Virus record (IMG/VR): IMGVR_UViG_3300010883_016682
Span: 1-31,515 of that record
Strand: one strand, 5' to 3'
Length of the DNA stretch: 31,515 nt
DNA from: a virus
Position numbers and translations under genes: made by a program. The number at the start of each line of letters is the position of its first letter. Position 1 is the stretch's first letter. Shown here in pieces: positions 1-30,882 of the stretch. The notes below the pieces were generated by a model. That model did no database searches and was not told where the DNA came from. It was given only the letters and a program-made list of their open reading frames with translations.

Positions 1-250
1 TAGCATTATTCACGTAGATGAAACATGTCGTATTCAAACAGTAAGTGAAGAAGAAAATAAACACTACTATAATTTGATTAAGGCATTTAAGAATAGAAAA
101 GGTGTTCCAATTCTATTTAATACTAGCTTTAACTTAGGTGGAGATCCATTAGTTGAGACTATCGCGGATGCAATTGATACATTAAAGAAATGTGATATTC
201 AATACATGTATCTTCCTGAAATTGAAATGTTATTAAAGGTACCAAACTAA
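1..250 (+). CDS. Carbamoyltransferase, C-terminal end (partial, 5' end outside window)
   Basis: The open frame enters at base 2 and ends with TAA at 248-250, giving about 82 residues. The reading contains VPILFNTSFNLGGDPLVET followed by an AIDT..K...I segment, the hallmark of the C-terminal (YrdC-like) domain of NodU/CmcH/TobZ-type O-carbamoyltransferases. In TobZ this domain makes carbamoyl-adenylate from carbamoyl phosphate and ATP, and the Kae1-like N-terminal domain transfers the carbamoyl group to a hydroxyl, usually of a sugar. Whether the N-terminal domain is present upstream cannot be seen. The stop overlaps the next start by one base (TAATG), so the two are likely co-translated. A separate N-terminal-half homologue lies at 4459-5367 on the other strand. 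Confidence 0.85.
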   Translation, partial: SIIHVDETCRIQTVSEEENKHYYNLIKAFKNRKGVPILFNTSFNLGGDPLVETIADAIDTLKKCDIQYMYLPEIEMLLKVPN

Positions 251-846
251 TGTTGTGGCTAAAAAATCCAAGTCCAGATAACGCATTACATACTATTCAA
301 CATGATGCGTTAGATGAAGAATCAATTAAAATTTTAGAAGAGTATGTTTCTAAGAACGAATTAGTTGCTGCTGAAACAAATCAAAGCGATCCTGATAATG
401 TTAAGCCAGATGATCAAGCAATACGCAAAACTAATATTATGTGGATTGAAAATAATGATCAAACAGCAGGTCTTTATTGGAATATTGCTAATTTAATCAA
501 TGGTGCTAATAATGGAAAATTTAAATGTGATATCAATATGATTGAAACATTACAATATTCTGAATATGAAGATGGTGGACACTATCAAATGCATGTCGAT
601 CAAGGCATGATTAGTGCTGTTCCTGGTGAGGACATTCGAAAATTATCATTTAGTATTCTACTAAGTGATGAGAATGAATTTGAAGGTGGTGAACTAGATA
701 TTACTGCATTCTCTCCAGAAGGAGGAGCTATGATTAAAAACGATATTTGTATCTTCCCGTCTATGTTACCTCATAGAGTTAATCCAGTTACAAAAGGAAA
801 AAGGCGAGCTCTTGTTGGTTGGATAAAGGGTCCTGCTTGGATCTAA
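250..846 (+). CDS. 2-oxoglutarate/Fe(II)-dependent dioxygenase (prolyl-4-hydroxylase-like)
   Basis: This 198-residue protein fits the single-domain 2OG-Fe(II) oxygenase superfamily. The double-stranded beta-helix core shows the metal triad H115-x-D117 (in YQMHVD) and H175 (in MLPHRV), followed by the basic R185/R186 that would hold the 2-oxoglutarate carboxylate. The stretch between, KLSFSILLSD then EGGEL, is typical of PKHD/prolyl hydroxylase-like members. Substrate is unknown; proteins, nucleic acids and small molecules are all used by relatives. An AAAGG Shine-Dalgarno lies about 9 bases before the ATG. The gene overlaps the carbamoyltransferase stop upstream and meets the minus-strand phosphatase tail to tail with a 4-base overlap. 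Confidence 0.85.
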   Translation: MLWLKNPSPDNALHTIQHDALDEESIKILEEYVSKNELVAAETNQSDPDNVKPDDQAIRKTNIMWIENNDQTAGLYWNIANLINGANNGKFKCDINMIETLQYSEYEDGGHYQMHVDQGMISAVPGEDIRKLSFSILLSDENEFEGGELDITAFSPEGGAMIKNDICIFPSMLPHRVNPVTKGKRRALVGWIKGPAWI

Positions 847-1502
847 ACTAACTTTTGCGCGAATTCTAAGAATGTATCGTATATTAGTGTTCTGTTTTTT
901 AATGCCTTATTTGCAAAGCTGTTCAACTTGGAAAGATCCTCAGATTCAGTACAAACCAGGACAGGAAGTAATCCGCATTTCATGGCCATTTTAGCATCAA
1001 TTACTTTATCGCCTACGTAATAACCACTTTTATATGGTACATTAAATTCGTCTCTTAAGCGTCTTAACATTCCAGGTTTTGGTTTAGCAAAGAAATCCTG
1101 CTTATTATTTGATTCATTATATAGTATTCCATCAATACTAGGACAACCTGCTTCTCCTAACAATTTAAGAGTGTATTGATCTATTTCTTCAACTTGCTCA
1201 TGTGTAATTAACTTTGCAGAAATGCCAGGTTGATCATGTATCATAGCAACTTTAAATCCTTTACGCCTAAGTATATTAACTGCAATGAATGAAGATTTAA
1301 TAGGAACAGCGTTTTCTATAGAAGTAATCGGAGATCCATCAGTTTCAAACATTACACCATCACGATCAAAAGCAATTAAAGGACGTGGGTACTTAGCATT
1401 TAATTGAATCCTACTAAGTCCATAATCTTCTCCTGCATCAGGCGTTCCTGATAAACCTAGAACTTTATCACTAGGTTCTTCTTGCCACATATTAAAGCTC
1501 AT
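843..1502 (-). CDS. HAD phosphatase, GmhB-like (heptose 1,7-bisphosphate phosphatase candidate)
   Basis: This 219-residue HAD-superfamily hydrolase has motif I FDRDGV (nucleophile D46, acid/base D48), a KPKPGM lysine motif near 140-145 and the metal motif GDKVIDA (D165, D169). The layout matches GmhB, which removes the 1-phosphate or 7-phosphate equivalent step product before adenylylation in ADP-heptose synthesis. Two departures are visible. The Cys/His zinc loop of classical GmhB is missing between residues 120 and 140, and the usual motif II TNQ is HDQ. There is also an extra 40-residue N-terminus. The neighbouring HldD-like epimerase (11-base overlap) and heptose kinase support a heptose role; histidinol-phosphate-type or other sugar phosphatase activity is the alternative. 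Confidence 0.75.
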   Translation of the reverse strand: MSFNMWQEEPSDKVLGLSGTPDAGEDYGLSRIQLNAKYPRPLIAFDRDGVMFETDGSPITSIENAVPIKSSFIAVNILRRKGFKVAMIHDQPGISAKLITHEQVEEIDQYTLKLLGEAGCPSIDGILYNESNNKQDFFAKPKPGMLRRLRDEFNVPYKSGYYVGDKVIDAKMAMKCGLLPVLVCTESEDLSKLNSFANKALKNRTLIYDTFLEFAQKLV

Positions 1503-2325
1503 AATTTATATAATCCTCTACCTTTTTGAATGACATATCAATTAAATTTTGTAATTTACCTGTATGTGCACATGTATAATCTTGATACTGTCCTTTCAAT
1601 TCTTCGGGCATAACTACATAATCAATTTCAACTTCACCAAGTTTATCAGCAATTGCTAATGCTATAGTTTCAAAGCTAGTTGTTATTCCTGTTCCTACAT
1701 TATATATGCCTGACGGTTTACCAATCATTTTTTCATGAACCTTACATATATCTTCTACGTGTATAAAATCGCGAACATATCTATCTGAATTTTTAAAAAG
1801 TTTTATATATTTCTGATTTATAGCTTGGTCATAAAATTTTGTAACAGGAGAAGCTTGGTCACCTTTGTGTTCTTCCATAGGACCATACACATTAAAGTAT
1901 CTAAACCCTTGAATTTTAGTACCAAACTCACCGTAAAGATGTGTCATATATTTGTCTAAATAAAACTTTGACCAAGCATATCCATTCATAGGTGATTTAT
2001 TATTACTGCCTTCTTTAAAATCTTCAGGAGATTTACCAAATCCATACACGCTTGCAGAAGAAGAATATTGAATTGGTATTTTATTCTTGGCACACCTTGC
2101 AACTAATTCAATAGTAAACTTATAGTTACGATCATATAGTTTATCAGCGTTTCTTTCAGTAGTTGAAGATACTGCTCCACAGTGGATTACATGGTCAATT
2201 GAATCCCATGGCAAAGCCCAATTAAATGGCCAATCCATACCAATAATATCATGGCCTAATTTTTTAAAATACTTAATCATATTTTTACCAATGAAACCAT
2301 TGCTACCTGTTATTAAAATCTTCAT
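1492..2325 (-). CDS. hldD: ADP-L-glycero-D-manno-heptose 6-epimerase-like (HldD) SDR protein
   Basis: This 277-residue extended short-chain dehydrogenase/reductase has the NAD(P)-binding GSNGFIG at residues 7-13, the Ser cluster at 88-91 and the catalytic Y116-x-x-x-K120. Beyond generic motifs it keeps segments I recognise from HldD: HCGAVSSTTE near 48-57, GFRYFNVYGP at 140-149 followed by HKG and AS, and LKGQYQ near the C-terminus. HldD converts ADP-D-glycero- to ADP-L-glycero-D-manno-heptose, the last step before lipopolysaccharide inner-core assembly. Length is somewhat below the roughly 310 residues of the enterobacterial enzyme. A GGAGG ribosome site stands before the ATG. It overlaps the kinase gene by 4 bases and the phosphatase gene by 11, indicating one operon. 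Another NDP-sugar epimerase is the less likely alternative. Confidence 0.85.
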   Translation of the reverse strand: MKILITGSNGFIGKNMIKYFKKLGHDIIGMDWPFNWALPWDSIDHVIHCGAVSSTTERNADKLYDRNYKFTIELVARCAKNKIPIQYSSSASVYGFGKSPEDFKEGSNNKSPMNGYAWSKFYLDKYMTHLYGEFGTKIQGFRYFNVYGPMEEHKGDQASPVTKFYDQAINQKYIKLFKNSDRYVRDFIHVEDICKVHEKMIGKPSGIYNVGTGITTSFETIALAIADKLGEVEIDYVVMPEELKGQYQDYTCAHTGKLQNLIDMSFKKVEDYINYEL

Positions 2326-3188
2326 GTAGTTTCCTCCATCACTTTTGCTAATTTATTCATATCAATCATATAAGTTCCTATAGTTTTAACTGCTTCACCT
2401 GCCATAATATTAGCAACAATAACTGATTTATATATAGGATAGTTCATATCACAGCAAATTGCTAACGCAGCTGTAAACGTATCTCCTGCTCCAGTTACAT
2501 CATACACATTTGTTTCAACAGCAGGATAATGTTCAATAGTATCACCTACATATAAAACACCTTCGCTTCCTAATGTAACCATAAAATGTTGAATATCAAG
2601 GTTATCTCTAACTTGACGTGCATGTACTAAGAGATCCTTTGCACTTAGATCTGTTTCATTTATATAACTTTCAAATTCTTTTTTATTAGGTTTAAGAATA
2701 TATGCACCTTTATATTGACTTAAACATTTCTTAGGATCTACTATTACTCTTTTACTTTTAGAAATAATATTTTGTGCATATTTGATTGTTCCTTTATTGT
2801 AATCAGATAATACAACAACATCGTATTCATTATAAATTTTAAAATCATTTTCTACGATAGTGTCTTCAATATATCTTTCACTATCAACTCTTGACATAAC
2901 ATGGCCGTCACTCAATATTCTTATTTTGTGAGGCATAATATTTGTTTTAGCTACATGTCCATGTGGACTTAATTTTTTGAATATATAGTAATGGATATCA
3001 TCACAGTAACCATATAACGAAACATCGTTAGTTACTGCTTTAATATTCATATAAGTATTACCAGCACCACCTAAAGAAAGCTTTTTGCTCTTTAGATCAA
3101 CAATTGGAATGGGTGCTTCCGGTGATAATCGTGTAGACGAGCCATACCAATATTCGTCTATTATGATGTCGCCTATGACATGAATCAT
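2322..3188 (-). CDS. hldE1: D-glycero-beta-D-manno-heptose-7-phosphate kinase (HldE N-terminal domain, pfkB family)
   Basis: This 288-residue PfkB/ribokinase-family protein corresponds to the kinase half of HldE (RfaE domain I). The start GDIIIDEYWYG, then RLSPEAPIPIV at 20-30 and GGAGN at 40-44, follow the RfaE pattern closely, and the ATP-site motif DVTGAGDTF lies at 230-238 with catalytic D236. It would phosphorylate heptose 7-phosphate at O1. In enterobacteria the kinase is fused to the adenylyltransferase; here that second half is a separate gene at 5710-6120. A GGAG site lies about 9 bases before the ATG. It is first in the block kinase-epimerase-phosphatase. Only 23 bases separate its start from the divergent heme oxygenase start, so no clear promoter of its own is visible. 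Confidence 0.9.
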   Translation of the reverse strand: MIHVIGDIIIDEYWYGSSTRLSPEAPIPIVDLKSKKLSLGGAGNTYMNIKAVTNDVSLYGYCDDIHYYIFKKLSPHGHVAKTNIMPHKIRILSDGHVMSRVDSERYIEDTIVENDFKIYNEYDVVVLSDYNKGTIKYAQNIISKSKRVIVDPKKCLSQYKGAYILKPNKKEFESYINETDLSAKDLLVHARQVRDNLDIQHFMVTLGSEGVLYVGDTIEHYPAVETNVYDVTGAGDTFTAALAICCDMNYPIYKSVIVANIMAGEAVKTIGTYMIDMNKLAKVMEETT

Positions 3189-3211
3189 TATTTTACTCCA
3201 TGAGGTTATTT

Positions 3212-3838
3212 ATGGCACTACGTGACTTACTAAAAGACATCCACAACGAAGCTGAAAACACAGAGTTTGCAACGCTTCTTATGAGTGGTAATATGTCTCC
3301 TGAACTATACGGTTTATATTTAAACCAACAATTTCATATTTATTCAGCTTTAGAAAACAGAGCTTATAAATTCCCATTTTATTTAGACAATCTTAGAAAA
3401 ATGGGAAGAATGATGCCGCTTGAAACAGATCGAGTTGGTTATGTTTATCCTGATAAAATTCTACCTACTACTAAAAAGTATATGAAATATTGCGGCCAAT
3501 TAAGAGAAGATCAAGTTATTGCTCATTTATATGTTCGCCACTTCGGTGATATGTACGGTGGGAATATGATCCAAAAGAAAATTCCTAAGTGTAATAGACC
3601 ATCAGAAGCTATGCATACAGAAGGTTTATATTACTTGTTCGAAGAGAAAAAAGAAAACATTTCCATAATGAGAAACCTATTAAATGATGATATGGCAGAT
3701 GAATGTAAGATAGTATTTCAATACGCAATCGATTTATTTAAGGAGTTAATGGACTATGATATTCCCGAAGCTTATATCAGCAGCATCGGATCTCCAGGAG
3801 TTGCTGGAATCAAAGACGGATCTCAAGCAACTGCATGA
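3212..3838 (+). CDS. ho1: Heme oxygenase
   Basis: This protein of 208 residues resembles biliverdin-forming heme oxygenases such as those of cyanobacteria and marine phages. With the start chosen here, H11 in DIHNEAE is the proximal heme ligand and the distal helix carries RHFGDMYGG (112-117), matching the GD..GG signature that lets the helix kink over heme. The enzyme opens heme to biliverdin IX-alpha, CO and iron using ferredoxin or another reductant. An ATG at 3200 is in frame, but the second ATG at 3212 follows a GAGGT site at the right distance and gives the usual MALRDLL start. The 3' end overlaps the bilin reductase gene by 83 bases, so the pair is translationally coupled and biliverdin can pass straight to the reductase. 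Confidence 0.92.
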   Translation: MALRDLLKDIHNEAENTEFATLLMSGNMSPELYGLYLNQQFHIYSALENRAYKFPFYLDNLRKMGRMMPLETDRVGYVYPDKILPTTKKYMKYCGQLREDQVIAHLYVRHFGDMYGGNMIQKKIPKCNRPSEAMHTEGLYYLFEEKKENISIMRNLLNDDMADECKIVFQYAIDLFKELMDYDIPEAYISSIGSPGVAGIKDGSQATA

Positions 3839-4445
3839 TTTCCCTTGGCCAGCAATATCATATGGACCCTGCAAACATTTTAGAAGAGCAGACTTATGTA
3901 TCATTGATGTAAGAGATAGGAAAAAACTATGGATGCTTCATCTTGTAGTTTATCCTCATTTTGACGATGGTTCTCCAATCTATGGCTTTGATATTATTGC
4001 TGGACCTAATAAGGTTACCGGAGCCTTTCATGACTTCTCTCCTTGTGATCCTAATAATACTATTATAACACAGTTTGGAGAGAATGTAAAGGACTTTATG
4101 CCAAAAAAGCAAAGAGAATTGCCTGATTGGGCAAAAAACATATTCAGTCCATATATGATTGCTGCAGGAAATGTTAGAGGCGATTCTGAAGAATTAGATG
4201 AAATACTTTCTTTATCCTTATTAAATTTAGAAATGCTTTTAAATATGATTGGAACCAACAAAGGTGATGTTGATTATAAGCCTCATCAATCGTGGTATGT
4301 TTATAACCAAAGACAAAATCCTCACACTTCAAGAGTGATGGAATCTTTGGGTATTGATAAAGAAACTGTAAGGAAATATATAGATGAATGTTTATGGCCT
4401 GTTGAAGAAGCTTGGATGGACAGCCGTCCTGTTCTTCACGATTAA
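3756..4445 (+). CDS. pcyX: Ferredoxin-dependent bilin reductase, PcyX/PcyA-like
   Basis: This 229-residue protein belongs to the ferredoxin-dependent bilin reductase family (PcyA, PebA, PebB, PebS, PcyX). The central segment LHLVVYP then YGFDIIAGP then FHDFSP aligns with the PcyA active-site region. H62 and D79 occupy the places of the PcyA catalytic His and Asp, whereas PebS has Asn at the His position. The C-terminal NPHTSRVME..GI and RKYIDECLWP also follow the family. Pairing with heme oxygenase and the retained His/Asp pair make the marine-phage PcyX type (biliverdin to phycoerythrobilin) the best guess; phycocyanobilin formation cannot be excluded from sequence. An AAGGAG site 10 bases before the ATG lies inside the heme oxygenase gene. 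Confidence 0.88.
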   Translation: MIFPKLISAASDLQELLESKTDLKQLHDFPWPAISYGPCKHFRRADLCIIDVRDRKKLWMLHLVVYPHFDDGSPIYGFDIIAGPNKVTGAFHDFSPCDPNNTIITQFGENVKDFMPKKQRELPDWAKNIFSPYMIAAGNVRGDSEELDEILSLSLLNLEMLLNMIGTNKGDVDYKPHQSWYVYNQRQNPHTSRVMESLGIDKETVRKYIDECLWPVEEAWMDSRPVLHD

Positions 4446-4458
4446 AGGTTGCATTTGG

Positions 4459-5367
4459 TTACTTCTTTTTTATTTTGGTTTTGAGGTATTTCAATACACA
4501 ACTAATTGATGAACCGCTGTCGCCTGGATCAGCTGGAACCCAAACATTAGCAGCGAGTTCTTTTAATTTATTTTGTATTCCTTTGTTATGCGCACAACCA
4601 CCAGATAGAATAACATTAGTAATACCAGTTTTATTAATCCAATAATTACACATTTTTAAAACTATTTCTTCAAATACAATTTGAGTAGTTGCTGCGATTT
4701 CTTCTTGTTTATAACTAGAAAATTTGTTTCCAACTCCTCTATGCAAATTGTCAACAAATATAGGACGCCATATATGAGGGATAATCATACTTTGAATATC
4801 TCTATACAAATATCTATTAAAGTATATTTTATTTGAAATTGATTCAAATAAGCTTTCGTCTTTATTTGGAATTAATCCAGAAGCCTTTACCATTGAACTG
4901 TAAAACAAACCTAAGCTATCTGGATAATTTTGTTTTCCTAAACATTTAAGCTTGTTTTCTTTATGACCCATGTATAAAGCTTTAGATGTTCCTTTCCAAA
5001 CAGAAGTACAATTATATTCTCCGATAGAATCCATTACAAATATTAAAGCTTCTCGAAAATCTGTTTGATAAAACGCTGCAGCATGTGCACCATGATGAGA
5101 CACATAAGTCCATGGACACTTAATACCTAAATCTTTTAATATTTTACTAACGTTGTTTCTACTAATAAAATTGGGCTGGCCAGCTCTCATTTGTCTTAAA
5201 CCCTTTAAATAAGGATTCTCAAACCACACCACCTTTTCAGGTGGGGCGATATTTTTAGCTTTTTCTATATCCTTTATAGACGTATATCTAAACGAATCAA
5301 TCAACAAGTTATTATGAAAAATTGATAGTGTTGCATCATGGCCGCTTGACATTCCCCAATAGATCAT
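4459..5367 (-). CDS. Carbamoyltransferase, N-terminal (Kae1-like) half only
   Basis: This 302-residue protein starts with GMSSGHDATLSIF and carries VSHHGAHAAAF near residue 89-99, FVMDSIGEY near 110-118, and ILSGGCAHN with VPADPGDSGSS near the end. These are the metal, nucleotide and substrate motifs of the N-terminal ASKHA/Kae1-like domain of NodU/TobZ O-carbamoyltransferases. Full-length enzymes are roughly 550-600 residues; the C-terminal YrdC-like domain is absent here and the frame ends cleanly with a lysine-rich tail. It may act with a partner supplying carbamoyl-adenylate, such as the gene at the left edge, or be a divergent transferase. It overlaps the upstream cupin gene by 4 bases and has an AAGGTGA ribosome site. 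Substrate is presumably a sugar hydroxyl (inference). Confidence 0.82.
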   Translation of the reverse strand: MIYWGMSSGHDATLSIFHNNLLIDSFRYTSIKDIEKAKNIAPPEKVVWFENPYLKGLRQMRAGQPNFISRNNVSKILKDLGIKCPWTYVSHHGAHAAAFYQTDFREALIFVMDSIGEYNCTSVWKGTSKALYMGHKENKLKCLGKQNYPDSLGLFYSSMVKASGLIPNKDESLFESISNKIYFNRYLYRDIQSMIIPHIWRPIFVDNLHRGVGNKFSSYKQEEIAATTQIVFEEIVLKMCNYWINKTGITNVILSGGCAHNKGIQNKLKELAANVWVPADPGDSGSSISCVLKYLKTKIKKK

Positions 5368-5723
5368 TTTTGAGAATCACCTTTTGCTATTCTATAATTA
5401 TCTTCAACGGAATCAGGTGTAGATACTTCAATTAATATTCCTGCTTCAACGCAACTAACTTGGTGAGGTTCACACGGATCGTTATGATAAACGTCACCTT
5501 CCTTTAAATCAACAGTTGCAACGCTAGCGTCTTCAGTTGAAATTTTCATTACTTTAAACTTACCATTAAGGCATAGCCAAGTTTCCATTTTTTCTTTGTG
5601 AAAATGCATAGAGAATTTAGAACCTGCTTTAAATGATAATAGCTTACCGCAGTATTTATCATTTGAAGCGAAGATAAATTCATGTCCCCAACCTTTTTTT
5701 ACAAAGCCGTTAAGTCTTGTCAT
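5364..5723 (-). CDS. Small cupin, sugar-isomerase-like
   Basis: This 119-residue single cupin has first-motif metal ligands H40-x-H42 and E47, and second-motif H87 in EPHQV. The beginning GWGHEFIF and the FKAGSKFSMHFH stretch resemble small cupins annotated as mannose-6-phosphate isomerase-like or found in polysaccharide clusters. The complete set of four ligands suggests a working metalloenzyme or sugar-binding protein, but the reaction cannot be inferred. It overlaps the nucleotidyltransferase gene by 14 bases and the carbamoyltransferase gene by 4, so it is the middle gene of a tight three-gene minus-strand operon. A role in altering the heptose or another nucleotide sugar is a guess from context. 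Confidence 0.8.
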   Translation of the reverse strand: MTRLNGFVKKGWGHEFIFASNDKYCGKLLSFKAGSKFSMHFHKEKMETWLCLNGKFKVMKISTEDASVATVDLKEGDVYHNDPCEPHQVSCVEAGILIEVSTPDSVEDNYRIAKGDSQK

Positions 5724-6120
5724 TTATAAAATCCAATATTTTTGATGATGATTGTCCAGGCATAGTGTCCATAATTTTAATCCATGCGAGGCCTCTTCCA
5801 ACTACAAATTCAGGCTCATAGTCACCACCTTTAGTAATCATATAAGGTTTAACCTTTTTGATTAACTCAAGCGGAGTATCTTCTTCGAAGATAATAACCT
5901 TATCCACATATCTAATTGCTTCGAGTACTTGTTTTCTTTGGTCTTGTGTATGATAAGATTTTCTCTTTATTCGTTTCATACTCTCATCAGAATTTAATCC
6001 TACGATTAATGCTGTACCATGAGATCTTGATTCTTTTAAGTATTCTATGTGTCCAGGATGTATTATATCAAAACATCCATTAGTAAACACTATTTTGTCT
6101 TCATTCAACTGATTCTCCAC
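5710..6120 (-). CDS. hldE2: Heptose 1-phosphate nucleotidyltransferase (HldE C-terminal domain)
   Basis: This 136-residue cytidylyltransferase-like protein has FTNGCFDIIHPGH with the H21-x-x-H24 nucleotide motif, VGLNSDESMKR, and EDTPLELI with KGGDYEPE. This combination matches the RfaE domain II/HldE C-terminal adenylyltransferase, which joins AMP from ATP to heptose 1-phosphate to give ADP-heptose. The kinase half is at 2322-3188, so HldE is split, as in some bacteria. A glycerol-3-phosphate cytidylyltransferase-like enzyme is the main alternative but lacks the TP..LI and KGGDY context. The first codon is GTG without a clear ribosome site; a TTG at 6108 follows a GGAG with 6-base spacing and may be the real start. 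It is the first gene after the early promoter at 6158-6186. Confidence 0.85.
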   Translation of the reverse strand: MENQLNEDKIVFTNGCFDIIHPGHIEYLKESRSHGTALIVGLNSDESMKRIKRKSYHTQDQRKQVLEAIRYVDKVIIFEEDTPLELIKKVKPYMITKGGDYEPEFVVGRGLAWIKIMDTMPGQSSSKILDFINDKT

Positions 6121-6195: not shown

Positions 6196-6951
6196 ATGGC
6201 AAATCCTAATTCACGTTCATCATTACTCGATTATTGCCTCAGAAAACTTGGGGCACCTGTACTTGAAGTTAACGTAGACGCAGATCAACTCGAAGATCGA
6301 ATCGACGAAGCTTTACAGGTGTACCAAGAATATCATTCTGATGCAACAGTAAAAACCTATCTTAAACATTTAGTAACTACAACAGACGTAACCAATAAGT
6401 ATATACCTATATCGTCTAGTATTATATATGTCTCTCGTTTGTTGCCATTCTCAAGTGCATCAAGTTCAAGTTCTAACATGTTTGGTGTAAAATACCAAAT
6501 GATGCTAAATGACATATCAGATTTACAAAATTTTGCAGGTGATTTAGCATATTACGAGCAAATGCAACAATATCTATCACTTTTAGATATGCAGCTTAAT
6601 GGAACACCTACAGTTAATTTTGCAAGACATCAAAATCGTTTGAATATATTTGGAGATTTTGAAGATCAAGATATAAAAGCAGGTCAATATGTTATCGCAG
6701 AAGTTTATCAAATTGTTGCTCCTAATTCGCATGTATCAGTATATAATGATATGTGGCTTAAAGATTACACAACCCAATTGATTAAACAACAGTGGGGTGC
6801 AAACCTTATTAAATTTGAAGGAATGCAACTTCCAGGTGGTGTTACTCTTAATGGTAGACAAATATATGATGATGCAACGGCTGCGTTAGAAGCACTTATG
6901 GAAAAATTAAAACTAGAACACGAACTTCCACCTGATTTCTATATAGGATAA
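6196..6951 (+). CDS. gp13: gp13-like neck protein
   Basis: This 251-residue protein matches marine T4-type gp13. The N-terminus has SLLDYCLRKLG, then EDRIDEALQVYQEYH and YLKHLV, a conserved opening of this family, and the C-terminus ends in a helical stretch leading to LPPDFYIG. In T4, gp13 with gp14 forms the neck that closes the DNA-filled head below the portal and offers the site where the finished tail binds. T4 gp13 is 309 residues, so this one is shorter, as in marine relatives. A short serine-rich run near residues 90-98 is the only low-complexity segment. It opens the late structural operon and is followed 4 bases later by gp14. An AGGAA site precedes the ATG. Confidence 0.88.
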   Translation: MANPNSRSSLLDYCLRKLGAPVLEVNVDADQLEDRIDEALQVYQEYHSDATVKTYLKHLVTTTDVTNKYIPISSSIIYVSRLLPFSSASSSSSNMFGVKYQMMLNDISDLQNFAGDLAYYEQMQQYLSLLDMQLNGTPTVNFARHQNRLNIFGDFEDQDIKAGQYVIAEVYQIVAPNSHVSVYNDMWLKDYTTQLIKQQWGANLIKFEGMQLPGGVTLNGRQIYDDATAALEALMEKLKLEHELPPDFYIG

Positions 6952-6955
6952 CAAA

Positions 6956-8080
6956 ATGGCCACTAATGTTAACTTCAGCGATAGAGTCACGTCTGAGCAA
7001 AGATTATACGAAGATATCGTAATTGAATCTTTAAAGATGTTTGGTCAAGACGTGTATTATCTACCTCGCACATTAATCAATGAAGATACAATTTTCAATG
7101 AAGACATTCCTTCTAAATTTAGTAATGCATATAAGATTGAAATGTACATTGAAAACGTTGATGGATTTGAAGGTGAAGGAGATATCTTCACGAAGTTTGG
7201 TGTGGAAATGAGAGATGAAGCTACCTTTGTAGTTTCACGTAAAAGATTTGGAAACGCTGTTATTCAATATGATAACGAAATTACAGCAGAACGACCTGAA
7301 GAAGGTGATTTAATATATCTCCCATTATCAAAAAGTTTATTTGAAATTGGACATGTTGAAAGAGAATTGCCATTTTACCAATTAGCAGCTCTTCCTACTT
7401 TTAAGATGAGATGTAGTCTATTCGAATATTCAGATGAGCAATTAGATACAGGAGTTACAGGTGTTGATGATATTGAAGTTTATTCAACGTATCAATATGT
7501 TATTGGTTATACAAAACCAATCATTGGAACAGCTACAGCCTCACTCTCCGGAGGTGTGGTTTCAGAGGTAGCAATTACTAATGCAGGTGATGGTTATAGA
7601 TCAGGAACTCCACCAGTCATTACTGTAAGTGCGCCATCAAATGCCGGCGGAGTACAAGCATCAATTGGTTCAACACTTACAAGTGGTAAGATTACAGCAC
7701 TTACAATTACAAATGCTGGATCAGGTTATACATCTGCACCAACAATAACAGTTGCTGGTCCTACAGATGTAGAATTTGTAAGAGGAGAACAAGTTTCTCA
7801 GACATTCGCAAGTGGTGTTAAAATGTTTGGAGAAGTGGTCAAACAAAACGATTCAGATGCACTTCTTTATATCGCACATGCTGGAGCAGATGATGGTAAA
7901 TTCCATAACTTTGCAACAAGCCTAGATATAACTGGAGCAACATCCTTTGCTGCATCAACAGTCTTATCAGTTACTGAATTAGATAACTCATCTGATACAG
8001 AAGATAACACAGACTTTGATACAGATATGTCAGGATTCTTAGACTTCTCAGAGAATAACCCATTTGGAGATCCTGAATAA
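6956..8080 (+). CDS. gp14: gp14-like neck protein with an inserted repeat domain
   Basis: This 374-residue protein has the gp14 N-terminal body (YEDIVIESLKMFGQDVYYLPR, here spanning roughly residues 18-38, then EDIPSKF and EMYIENVDGFEG) and an acidic C-terminus ending in FSENNPFGDPE. T4 gp14 is 256 residues; the excess is explained by an insert around residues 190-270 with two copies of a glycine-rich beta motif (AITNAGDGYRSGTP at 206-219 and TITNAGSGYTSAP at 250-262). Such repeats are common in exposed phage virion proteins. gp14 forms the collar with gp13. The stop shares one base with the next start (TAATG). Confidence 0.87.
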   Translation: MATNVNFSDRVTSEQRLYEDIVIESLKMFGQDVYYLPRTLINEDTIFNEDIPSKFSNAYKIEMYIENVDGFEGEGDIFTKFGVEMRDEATFVVSRKRFGNAVIQYDNEITAERPEEGDLIYLPLSKSLFEIGHVERELPFYQLAALPTFKMRCSLFEYSDEQLDTGVTGVDDIEVYSTYQYVIGYTKPIIGTATASLSGGVVSEVAITNAGDGYRSGTPPVITVSAPSNAGGVQASIGSTLTSGKITALTITNAGSGYTSAPTITVAGPTDVEFVRGEQVSQTFASGVKMFGEVVKQNDSDALLYIAHAGADDGKFHNFATSLDITGATSFAASTVLSVTELDNSSDTEDNTDFDTDMSGFLDFSENNPFGDPE

Positions 8081-12965: not shown

Positions 12966-13493
12966 ATGGCGATTTTAGGAGTAGACGATTTTAAATCCAA
13001 AATCCGTGGTGGTGGTGCCCGTCCTAACTTATTTAAGACGACACTAAACTTCCCTGGATTTGCAGGCGGCGATGTTGAATTGACATCATTCATGTGTAAA
13101 ACAGCACAGCTTCCGGCATCAACTATAGCACCGATTGTAGTTCCTTTTAGGGGACGTCAATTGCAAATGGCTGGTGACAGAACATTCGAACCTTGGTCAG
13201 TTACTATCATTAATGATACTGACTTTCAAGTTAGAGATGCTATGGAAAGATGGATGAACGGCATATCAGCACATACTCAAAATACTGGCTTAGTTAATGT
13301 CGGTGATTATGTTGCAGATATGGTAGTTGAGCAATTGAATAAAAACGGTGATACTATAAAGACTTATAACTTCACTGGAGCGTTCCCAACCAACATTTCG
13401 GCGATTGATTTAGCATATGATGCTAATGATACAATCGAAGAATTCACGGTTGAGTTCCAGATTCAGTACTGGACAAGTAACACAACGTCGTAG
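12966..13493 (+). CDS. gp19: gp19-like tail tube protein
   Basis: This 175-residue protein matches T4 gp19 (163 residues), the stacked-hexamer tube subunit. Conserved stretches include RPNLFKTTLNFPGF near the start, FMCKTAQLPASTI near 40-52, VPFRGRQLQMAGDRTFEPW near 58-76 and the closing YDANDTIEEFTVEFQIQYW. The family fold is a beta barrel related to bacteriocin and type VI secretion tubes. A GGGAGA site precedes the ATG, and an inverted repeat follows the stop at 13502-13533. A second tube-like protein (gp3-like) occurs at 18994-19542. Confidence 0.95.
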   Translation: MAILGVDDFKSKIRGGGARPNLFKTTLNFPGFAGGDVELTSFMCKTAQLPASTIAPIVVPFRGRQLQMAGDRTFEPWSVTIINDTDFQVRDAMERWMNGISAHTQNTGLVNVGDYVADMVVEQLNKNGDTIKTYNFTGAFPTNISAIDLAYDANDTIEEFTVEFQIQYWTSNTTS

Positions 13494-18993: not shown

Positions 18994-19542
18994 ATGGCAA
19001 TTACCTCAACAAGTACAACAGTAGGAGTAGGCGAAAGCTCACTTACTACTAATACAAATTATTTACAGCCAAACGGATTTAAGATCTCGATTGATAGGAA
19101 ATACTTTCCAAATCTCCAGTTCTTTGCCCAAAACATTATGCATCCAAGCATGACTGTTGAAGCTGTTCAATTACAAATTCCAAGATTAGCGGGTGGTCTT
19201 AAGTTATCAGGCGACAACATTAACTTTGGTGAATTAAGCATGATGGTTATCATGGACGAAGGATTAGCATCTTATCAAGAGATATATAATTGGATGGTTT
19301 CGTTTGTTAATAAACAAGATGCGTCACCAATGGATGTAGCATTAGGCGCTGGTCCAAGTTACGCAGATATTACAGTGTCTATTACAAATTCACATAACAA
19401 TGTGATTAAACAAATCGTATATTATAATGCAATACCAACTTCACTCGGAGATATAATGTTTGAAGCAGCAACTGGAGATGTCCAATATATAATCATGCCA
19501 GTTAACTTTGCGTTTGATACGTTTGAAATTAAAAATCCATAA
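18994..19542 (+). CDS. gp3: gp3-like tail tube terminator/completion protein
   Basis: This 182-residue protein belongs to the T4 tube-related fold: NGFKISIDRKYFPNLQFFAQNI near 27-48, then LQIPRLAGG and INFGELSMMVIMDEGLASYQEIYNWM near 76-103 resemble gp19-like subunits. Location after gp23 and before uvsY is where marine T4-type genomes carry gene 3, and T4 gp3 is 176 residues. gp3 caps the tail tube at the head-proximal end. gp54 or a second tube protein are alternatives. AAAGGA lies before the ATG. The stop is one base from the SGNH-like gene start. Confidence 0.72.
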   Translation: MAITSTSTTVGVGESSLTTNTNYLQPNGFKISIDRKYFPNLQFFAQNIMHPSMTVEAVQLQIPRLAGGLKLSGDNINFGELSMMVIMDEGLASYQEIYNWMVSFVNKQDASPMDVALGAGPSYADITVSITNSHNNVIKQIVYYNAIPTSLGDIMFEAATGDVQYIIMPVNFAFDTFEIKNP

Positions 19543-19543
19543 T

Positions 19544-20215
19544 ATGTATTTAGTCGTGACTGGTGATTCCTTTGTGGATCGCAATTTATATAATATGAAA
19601 TATGGTAAATATCCCCTCTGGCCAGAAATACTTGCTAAAAAACTCGGAAGAAAATTAATACTTCGTGGAGTCTCAGGTATGGGTAATTCTTTTATATACG
19701 ATAGTATGATAGATGAGTTATGGAAACTTAGAACTGATGATGTTATAGCTATATGTAGTTGGACAGAATTTGAAAGAGTACATATAAATGAAAAACATAG
19801 AAGTAAAAGAGGTCGTGACGAGGGAGGCGAAGCGAATTATCAAGGTGCTAAAATCTTAACCAATATTATGGAAAATTTAGATGACTTAGGTTATTTTAAT
19901 AGATTCGAATGTGATACACGAAATGTAAGATATATGAAAGCTTTTGAAATGGTGTGTGAAAAAGCTTATCATCTTCAAGGACCATATCCATATCCAAGAA
20001 ATGAAAACGGTGGACATGAAACCTTTTTAACCGAAGAGTTAGAAAGACCTTTCATACCAAGTTTCTATAGATGTTTTCGTAATAACGTATTTGATAAAGA
20101 AATCTCATACACAATTTCAACTAAAGATGGTCACCCAAACGAACTTGGTCATAGTGAATTAGCAAAGTTAATATATAATAGTATAATGATGATGGAGGAA
20201 GCAAATGCAGTTTAA
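19544..20215 (+). CDS. SGNH/GDSL-hydrolase-like protein
   Basis: This protein of 223 residues has SGNH-type blocks: TGDSF at residues 6-10 (block I nucleophile S9), GVSGMGNSF near 42-50 (block II glycine and an Asn) and DGHPNELGH near the C-terminus, close to the block V Asp/His motif. The spacing D-x-H-P-N differs by one from the common DxxHPN. Members hydrolyse esters, often acetyl groups on sugars or lipids, but some phage versions may be structural. A start at 19508 inside gp3 is possible; the ATG at 19544, right after the gp3 stop, gives the natural MYLVVTGDS start. It overlaps the next gene by 11 bases. Confidence 0.72.
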   Translation: MYLVVTGDSFVDRNLYNMKYGKYPLWPEILAKKLGRKLILRGVSGMGNSFIYDSMIDELWKLRTDDVIAICSWTEFERVHINEKHRSKRGRDEGGEANYQGAKILTNIMENLDDLGYFNRFECDTRNVRYMKAFEMVCEKAYHLQGPYPYPRNENGGHETFLTEELERPFIPSFYRCFRNNVFDKEISYTISTKDGHPNELGHSELAKLIYNSIMMMEEANAV

Positions 20216-21134
20216 ACCTGTAACATATAATTACGACATGAAAGATACAAAGAATTGGGAAGAATTAGCTTATGCTTTACCCGACGATGTATTACAATAT
20301 ATCCCTAATGCCAACTTAGACGAAATCAATTTAATGGAAGGTGCTGGTAAAGTTGGAACAATATACAATCCTAAAAAAGCTGGATATGACGTTTACTTTA
20401 TGCACAAAGAGCATACGGGAATCGCTCGAGTAACTAATGAAAAAGATAAAGATGGAAACTTTGTAGGATTGTTTCCTGAATCAGATTTAGGCTGGCATAA
20501 CAATGGCAATTGGAGGCATTGGCGTCATGTTGTTGAATCTGCAATTGCGTTCTATTGTGTTAAACCTGGTGATGATGTAGTCACTTCATTCTGTAATAGT
20601 AAACAAGCATATGAAGATTTACCAGATGATATCAAAGCAGTAGCATCTAATTTTGAATATTGGGCTGAATTTGATAAAGACAATTCAATTTACCAATTTG
20701 ATGATGAGTCATTGAATGCTGGTATGCACGAAATGTTAGCTATGTTTGAAGGTAACCTTGAACCTACAGGAAGAAAGAATAGAGTAAAAAATCCTGTAAG
20801 AGGAAGTTGGAAACCACTTATCGTTGAGCATCCAGGAAGAACAATTCCTGCATGGTTTAAAGATAGAGGAAAAGCAATTTACACTGGCCATTTCGGTGTT
20901 ATGCGAAAATGCAGAAGTAAAGAAACGGGTGAAGAGTTTACAATGGAAGAAATGAAACCATTGATGAAAATACTACATGAACATCTGTTTCAAGAGAAGT
21001 ATATATATAATCATAAGTGGCAAAAAGGCGACTTAATTCTTAACGACCAATTCTTCTCATACCATAAAAGAAATGCAGTAAAGGGTGATAGACTACTTTA
21101 TAGAGTAGCGTTTAATTATAAAAACTTGGAATAG
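20205..21134 (+). CDS. TauD/TfdA-like 2OG-Fe(II) oxygenase with altered metal triad
   Basis: This 309-residue protein looks like the TauD family: LGWHNNGNW near 95-103 stands where TauD has WHTD, PGDDVVTSF follows, and the end KGDLILNDQFFSYHKRNA..GDRLLYRVAFNY contains the distal His (H287) and the 2OG-binding Arg (R300). The proximal motif is H98-N99-N100, so the usual Asp of HxD is replaced by Asn. Fe-halogenases replace this Asp by Ala or Gly; an Asn form could still bind metal weakly or be a non-hydroxylating variant. A GGAGG site precedes the ATG. Substrate unknown. It overlaps the SGNH-like gene and is followed 3 bases later by uvsY. Confidence 0.78.
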   Translation: MQFKPVTYNYDMKDTKNWEELAYALPDDVLQYIPNANLDEINLMEGAGKVGTIYNPKKAGYDVYFMHKEHTGIARVTNEKDKDGNFVGLFPESDLGWHNNGNWRHWRHVVESAIAFYCVKPGDDVVTSFCNSKQAYEDLPDDIKAVASNFEYWAEFDKDNSIYQFDDESLNAGMHEMLAMFEGNLEPTGRKNRVKNPVRGSWKPLIVEHPGRTIPAWFKDRGKAIYTGHFGVMRKCRSKETGEEFTMEEMKPLMKILHEHLFQEKYIYNHKWQKGDLILNDQFFSYHKRNAVKGDRLLYRVAFNYKNLE

Positions 21135-30097: not shown

Positions 30098-30313
30098 ATG
30101 TCTGCAGAAAATATGGAACTAATTGATGCTGCAATCAAGCACGCAGAAGGTGCAAGAGCAGTAGCAATCGCAAACATTAATGTCTATAGGAGAAATCCTG
30201 CAGGTATTGGAGAACATTCAGATATTGTAGAAGCTATTCAATGCGAGCTTGATAAGATCGCAGCAGCTGACGATAGAATTGAAGCAGCTACTAAATACTT
30301 CGCAATAACGTGA
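30098..30313 (+). CDS. Small helical protein of unknown function
   Basis: This 71-residue protein is not recognised. It is predicted as two or three helices rich in Ala, Ile and Glu (AAIKHAEGARAVAIANINVYRR, IVEAIQCELDKIAAADDRIEAA), suggesting a helical bundle or oligomer. A GGGAGA site precedes the ATG. The stop overlaps the GTG start of the sulfotransferase by 3 bases, so it is co-translated with it, yet no link in function can be shown. Confidence 0.72.
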   Translation: MSAENMELIDAAIKHAEGARAVAIANINVYRRNPAGIGEHSDIVEAIQCELDKIAAADDRIEAATKYFAIT

Positions 30314-30882
30314 TCCATACTGACAAATGGGCCTTTATGCACATACCCAAAACAGGCGGTATGAATTTCATAAAGCGCTCTAATGTCAGAGATGAAGTTA
30401 CAAATCGTCACATTGATCTTCCTAAGTTTTGGGTTCATAAACCATTACAGTATTGGATAGATCAAGGATTCTTAGACAAACAATATTTATTTACATTTGT
30501 TAGAAATCCATATGATCGTTTAGTTAGTCTATACAATCATATTAAAGTACGAGGAAATGCTCCAGATCTTCCAGATTTTAAGACATTTGTTATGACAGAT
30601 TGGCTTAAGGTTAGAGGTCAAATAGATGATTTCAATATTGCAGCTCCTATGGTAGATTTTTTAAAAACTAACTCATGGTGCGAATATGGAATTTACAAAT
30701 TTGAAGATGGATTCGAACCTGTAGAACAAATTGTAGGTTATAAGTTTTCAGATACATTTATAAATAAGAACGAACATCCTTATTATTGGAATTACTATGA
30801 TGATGAGTCTAGGAAAATAACTTATTTAAAATACGAGAAAGATTTTGAAAGATTTGGTTACTCATATATGGAAGCTTATTAA
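30310..30882 (+). CDS. Sulfotransferase-family protein
   Basis: This 190-residue protein carries the PAPS-binding elements of carbohydrate-type sulfotransferases: FMHIPKTGG at 9-17 (5'-phosphosulfate loop) and TFVRNPYDRLVSLYNH near 62-77 (3'-phosphate loop). The rest includes WHKP-like and FEDGF segments. It would transfer sulfate from PAPS to a hydroxyl, most often on a sugar. At 190 residues it is short for the group but has both loops. The start is GTG overlapping the stop before it. Together with the carbamoyltransferase and heptose genes it suggests surface-glycan decoration (inference). Confidence 0.8.
   Translation: MIHTDKWAFMHIPKTGGMNFIKRSNVRDEVTNRHIDLPKFWVHKPLQYWIDQGFLDKQYLFTFVRNPYDRLVSLYNHIKVRGNAPDLPDFKTFVMTDWLKVRGQIDDFNIAAPMVDFLKTNSWCEYGIYKFEDGFEPVEQIVGYKFSDTFINKNEHPYYWNYYDDESRKITYLKYEKDFERFGYSYMEAY

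Follow-up and report, generated by a model that had tools for sequence, protein, structure and literature searches.

A PcyX-clade bilin reductase with two altered pocket residues, encoded with a heme oxygenase in a T4-like phage

Genes for a heme oxygenase (HO) and a ferredoxin-dependent bilin reductase (FDBR) are known to occur together in phages. The cassette and the enzyme class go back to Ledermann 2016 and 2018, as these are cited in PMC11480375 and PMC10151467, and PMC11480375 reported the HO-FDBR cassette on contigs including that of phage CB_2, so that its linkage to T4-like genomes is published. The complete genome of the pelagiphage isolate Mosig EXVC030M (MT647606), which is T4-like, also carries the same overlapping gene pair, immediately 5' of gp13. 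The kind of cassette, the class of enzyme and their presence in T4-like phages are therefore already known. An earlier note on the DNA studied here had presented the T4 linkage as placing the reductase in a genomic background, a claim to novelty that Mosig and the PMC11480375 contigs rule out. What is new here, as judged from aligned sequences, is the reductase variant, namely a subclade with Asp at position 46 and, within it, a form with Cys at position 48. No description of the Asp46 subclade, of the Cys48 form or of the split sugar cluster described below was found in the accessible literature, and published trees may contain members of the subclade.

The window, i.e. the whole 31.5-kb stretch of DNA analysed, represents part of the genome of a T4-like phage. 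The features around the cassette are as follows (window coordinates, strand).

250..846, +, 2OG-Fe(II) oxygenase
843..1502, -, HAD-type phosphatase
1492..2325, -, nucleotide-sugar epimerase
2322..3188, -, PfkB-type sugar kinase, adjoining the cassette, part of the sugar cluster on the opposite strand
3202..3205, +, GAGG, likely ribosome-binding site of HO, read directly in the sequence
3212..3838, +, heme oxygenase (HmuO/HO-1 type) with proximal His11 and distal GDMYGG motif
3739..3745, +, AAGGAG, likely ribosome-binding site of FDBR within the HO gene, read directly
3756..3838, +, out-of-frame HO/FDBR overlap of 83 bases, from the ORF coordinates
3756..4445, +, FDBR of the PcyX clade, with His62 and Asp79 kept and positions 46 (Asp) and 48 (Cys) altered
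4459..5367, -, Nol-like carbamoyltransferase
5364..5723, -, cupin protein
5710..6120, -, heptose-1-phosphate adenylyltransferase-like nucleotidyltransferase
6196..6951, +, T4 gp13 (neck protein, head-tail adaptor), fixed anchor 3' of the cassette

In the window, the T4 core starts at gp13, reaches as far as the major capsid protein and continues with UvsY, a UvsW-type helicase, gp46/47, the clamp, the clamp loader and RegA. The structural and replication core had previously been called complete; a large core is indeed present, but it is not complete in 31.5 kb, and the window ORFs that were scanned yielded no DNA polymerase. The nearest relatives of the major capsid protein are those of Phage C48C1 (67%), Methylophilales phage Melnitz (61%) and pelagiphage HTVC008M (61%), and the last two make a heterotrophic host likelier than a cyanobacterium. 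Several other genes of the window were noted. A TauD/TfdA-type Fe(II)/2OG dioxygenase (20205-21134) is inserted between the structural genes and uvsY, and two tail-tube family proteins (phrog_45; 12966-13493 and 18994-19542) flank the head genes. The gp14-type neck protein (6956-8080) is extended at its C-terminus by a region with matches to baseplate, fibre and virion structural families, and a sulfotransferase-like gene (30310-30882) adjoins RegA.

In the window ORF list, the longest HO frame covers 3200-3838 on the + strand. The ATG at 3212 is preceded, at a normal spacing of 6 bases, by GAGG, while no comparable element lies ahead of the ATG at 3200, so that 3212, the start already proposed, is preferred. 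The protein matches Pfam Heme_oxygenase (PF01126) with E=1.3e-14 and 54.9 bits, for a curated cut-off of 23, and its PDB matches are HO-1 and HO-2 structures. His11 and the Gly116-Gly117 of the distal-helix Gly motif are invariant in 30 aligned rows. The predicted activity of this HO is the turnover of heme to biliverdin IXalpha. Its C-terminus runs on over the start of the reductase, and an overlap of a similar kind is found in the closest sister locus (L044). Since AAGGAG sits inside the HO gene, translational coupling of the two genes is suggested.

The FDBR matches Pfam Fe_bilin_red (PF05996) with E=2.1e-13 and 50.9 bits, against a curated cut-off of 31. Its top PDB match is PcyX 5OWG (9e-48), whereas PcyA reaches only about 3e-12. 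The AlphaFold2 model (pLDDT 93, pTM 0.91) has the predicted fold of a bilin reductase: a Foldseek search with it returned PcyA, PcyX, PebA and PebB, the first two ranking with the best PDB hits. A second IMG/VR contig (L002), 99.9% identical over 7.6 kb, carries both genes, which shows that the cassette is no assembly artefact. The overlapping HO and FDBR pair of the earlier note, in a T4-like phage, is thus borne out by the two ORFs and by Pfam matches above the cut-offs.

Pocket residues were mapped by alignment, His62 corresponding to PcyA His88, Asp79 to Asp105, Cys48 to Glu76 and Asp46 to His74. The PcyA numbering was anchored by the PDB entries of the E76Q and H74E mutants. Residue counting on the Mosig protein equates the position of Cys48 with that of Asp55 as numbered in PMC11480375. 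The Asp-His catalytic pair, His62 and Asp79, is retained as had been noted; it is invariant in 99/99 homologues having a residue there, and nearly all other near-invariant FDBR residues are also kept. The proposed separation from PebS holds as well: PebS has Asn at site 62, and the site of Asp206, which forms the PebS catalytic pair with Asp105, is Asn188 in the window FDBR.

Positions 46 and 48 are different. Site 48 is Asp in 95 homologues, Glu in cyanophage PcyA and Cys only in the window and L002, and a scan of IMG/VR for the Cys48 pattern returned the L002 contig as its sole hit. Sequencing error was ruled out, since the two contigs differ elsewhere and agree here, and since the change takes two base substitutions. 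Site 46 is Asp in all 15 members of the window subclade and His in 81/81 others, as it is in PcyA and PebS. Scanning for the Asp46 pattern followed by an FDBR profile check left 26 hits, namely 25 FDBR stretches that combine Asp46 and Asp48, and L002 with Cys48. The Glu76 required of PcyA is absent from the window FDBR, and Cys48 likewise replaces the Asp55 that PMC11480375 termed PcyX-specific. For this last reason the enzyme is, on its sequence, filed as a member of the PcyX clade and not as a certified PcyX.

A reductase phylogeny was run as the earlier note had proposed (IQ-TREE, 71 rows, PebS and PebA as outgroup). The window FDBR falls within the bilin reductases, in the PcyX group, in a clade of 11 with support of 100/99 that is apart from Mosig and 5OWG, which are placed together. 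In both sequence and tree it is nearest to PcyX and separate from PcyA and PebS/PebA. Its assignment to the PcyX type was consequently upheld by phylogeny and by the 5OWG match, but not by the residue markers (Cys48 at Asp55, Asp46 at His74). The tree holds cyanobacterial PcyA rows on long branches, whose placement is unsure, and no bacterial AX-clade PcyA, because FDBR matches were found in just 3/385 genomes from the same class as the Rickettsiales MAG. PcyX-like FDBR genes were also seen in the bins of Halobacteroidaceae, Neomarinimicrobiota, Pirellulales and Rickettsiales MAGs (L120, L121, L122 and L123). The first three lie inside the phage PcyX clade and L123 is too short for the tree; these are probably phage contigs that ended up in bins.

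Selection is acting on the reductase gene: Nei-Gojobori comparisons with four sisters gave dN/dS values of 0.13-0.19 for the window FDBR, rough figures since dS is >1. A pair that keeps Asp (L003-L004) gave about 0.22, and the window branch therefore bears no sign of relaxation. The HO genes of the window clade mostly cluster together in a quick tree of this family. The HO of L046 (8481-9008) groups with those of L060/L061, although the L046 FDBR belongs to the window subclade, indicating that the halves of the cassette are sometimes exchanged. One viral record (G010, the record of L109) has two FDBR genes, at 53155-53706 and 79678-80286.

Relatives are encoded by at least 561 IMG/VR stretches; a plasmid search gave no match. 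HO adjoins FDBR on the same strand in 103/121 carrier loci, many of the loci being cut by contig ends. In all 62 carrier loci showing gp13, this gene lies 3' of the cassette on the same strand, 13-3225 bases off. In the window lineage the cassette splits an opposite-strand heptose-sugar cluster, with the HAD, epimerase and PfkB genes on one side and the carbamoyltransferase, cupin and nucleotidyltransferase genes on the other. Sugar genes, in a different order and without the cassette, also precede gp13 in the related phages L236, L239 and L240, and cyanophage S-SSM7 has similar sugar genes in this region. HTVC008M has several 2OG-Fe(II) oxygenases there and no HO-FDBR cassette. Taken together, these arrangements indicate a cargo region upstream of gp13, of which the cassette is one cargo. 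A role of the cassette in supplying iron to the adjacent 2OG-Fe(II) oxygenases was rejected, the adjacency being unspecific: such genes lie near only 25/78 cassettes, and HTVC008M has its own without any cassette. A T4 late promoter was also rejected, as shuffled sequences contain TATAAATA-like sites at least as often and HO is preceded by no exact copy. Scans for sigma-70 promoters and terminators gave nothing usable.

Gene content was surveyed in 29 carrier records (about 2 Mb), many of them fragments, so that absence is weak evidence for any single record. As the earlier note had observed for the window, no phycobiliprotein gene was found there or across the 29 records, and no phytochrome PHY domain was detected among the 29 either. 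A 2Fe-2S ferredoxin is encoded only by Mosig among these records, and the search of the window gave no ferredoxin gene. 5-Aminolevulinate synthase (AlaS) occurs in 4/29. In two of these, window relatives L007 (about 6655-7812, -) and L051, its gene lies directly beside HO-FDBR, bringing heme synthesis and heme breakdown genes side by side.

The reading that we favour, with some reserve, is that the cassette is phage cargo of the variable region upstream of gp13 that would convert heme to biliverdin and then to a phycoerythrobilin (PEB)-type bilin with host ferredoxin, for the benefit of heme turnover and not of light harvesting. HO would open host heme to biliverdin IXalpha, with release of CO and Fe2+. 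The overlapping FDBR, probably coupled to it in translation, would take electrons from host ferredoxin and carry out a four-electron reduction of biliverdin, most likely via 15,16-dihydrobiliverdin to PEB as in PcyX. The benefit would most likely lie in iron release, with the FDBR as a sink for biliverdin; the iron part of this argument has no specific support. Phycocyanobilin (PCB) is an unlikely product because the PcyA-specific Glu76, required for 18-vinyl reduction (PMC10151467), is absent. PEB is thus our best guess from sequence, held with real doubt: the Cys48 and Asp46 substitutions make the product less sure than for a typical PcyX, and FDBR regiospecificity is not reliably predictable (PMC13193486, FEBS J 2026).

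With two pocket residues altered, the enzyme might form a product other than that of PcyX (the two-electron 15,16-dihydrobiliverdin, phytochromobilin or PCB), which we regard as possible but doubtful. The Asp-His pair is intact, the Asp at this PcyX site is reportedly not needed for catalysis, and PCB in particular is unlikely without Glu76, all of which speak against such a change. In its favour, Asp46 replaces His in the whole subclade (15/15 versus 0/81) and Cys48 replaces Asp in the window form alone; in the neutron structures of PcyA a key water lies between His74 and His88 and Glu76 is treated as a proton donor (PMC9800206), and the formation of PCB by the CB_2 enzyme was ascribed to the absent Asp55 (PMC11480375). 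A bolder and improbable version would make the subclade a distinct class with an altered proton relay (Asp for His74 and, here, Cys for Glu76/Asp55) and a product that is neither PEB nor PCB; at the extreme, Cys48 would bind the bilin covalently and the protein would act as a chromoprotein or pigment sink. It is very unlikely that Cys48 marks a decaying reductase in a cassette where only HO matters. A near-invariant residue has been lost, but the frame is open, dN/dS resembles that of the Asp-keeping pair, the same form occurs in two contigs, and the catalytic pair and nearly all near-invariant residues are kept.

The remaining alternatives concern the use of the bilin. It might be made for a host photoreceptor, such as a bacteriophytochrome, and alter host light signalling. 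PEB is a poor phytochrome chromophore and no PHY domain was found in the 29 carrier records, so that this use seems improbable, even though a phytochrome can be loaded with the bilin made by the related CB_2 phage enzyme (PMC11480375) and hemO-pcyA-alaS adjoins a phytochrome gene in Bradyrhizobium ORS278. We consider it very unlikely that the phage infects a cyanobacterium and makes the bilin for the phycobilisome of this host. Bilin genes are frequent in T4-like phages of the Kyanoviridae, PebS serves cyanophages in this way, and P-RSM6 carries both PebS and PcyA. However, the closest capsid relatives of known host infect Methylophilales and Pelagibacter, no photosynthesis gene was seen in the window, and PcyX has not been found in cyanophages (PMC13193486).

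The regiochemistry of bilin reductases has yet to be explained, and predictions from single residues often fail. The subclade offers natural swaps at two pocket positions beside an intact Asp-His pair, and since sister genes vary at the second position (Cys48 or Asp48), expressing such a pair would directly test whether pocket residues set the product. The tie between Asp55 loss and PCB (PMC11480375) is in tension with the dispensability of this Asp that Ledermann 2018 is said to have found, and the window enzyme is a natural test. The lack of a bilin-binding protein in carrier phages makes it all the more pertinent to ask what non-cyanobacterial phages gain from degrading heme.

One of the described systems closest to the locus is PcyX (PcyX_EBK42635, with the crystal structure PDB 5OWG), a phage phycoerythrobilin synthase and, like the window FDBR, a PcyA-lineage enzyme encoded beside a phage HO. 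Both have the Asp-His pair, the same fold and no Glu76; the window enzyme differs by its separate, strongly supported subclade, by Asp46 for His and Cys48 for Asp55, and by a product that is only predicted. PebS of cyanophage P-SSM2 is also a phage FDBR and turns biliverdin into PEB, the predicted product here, but it belongs to a different lineage, lacks the His and uses Asp206. The hemO-pcyA/X(-alaS) cassettes of PMC11480375, including that of the freshwater phage CB_2, have the same gene pair as the window; AlaS accompanies it in the two window relatives mentioned above and not in the window itself, and the CB_2 enzyme, unlike the window FDBR, is a true PcyA making PCB. Mosig shares the overlapping pair, with 40% identity in FDBR and 30% in HO, and differs from the window in having 2OG oxygenases upstream, no split sugar cluster and a ferredoxin gene of its own.
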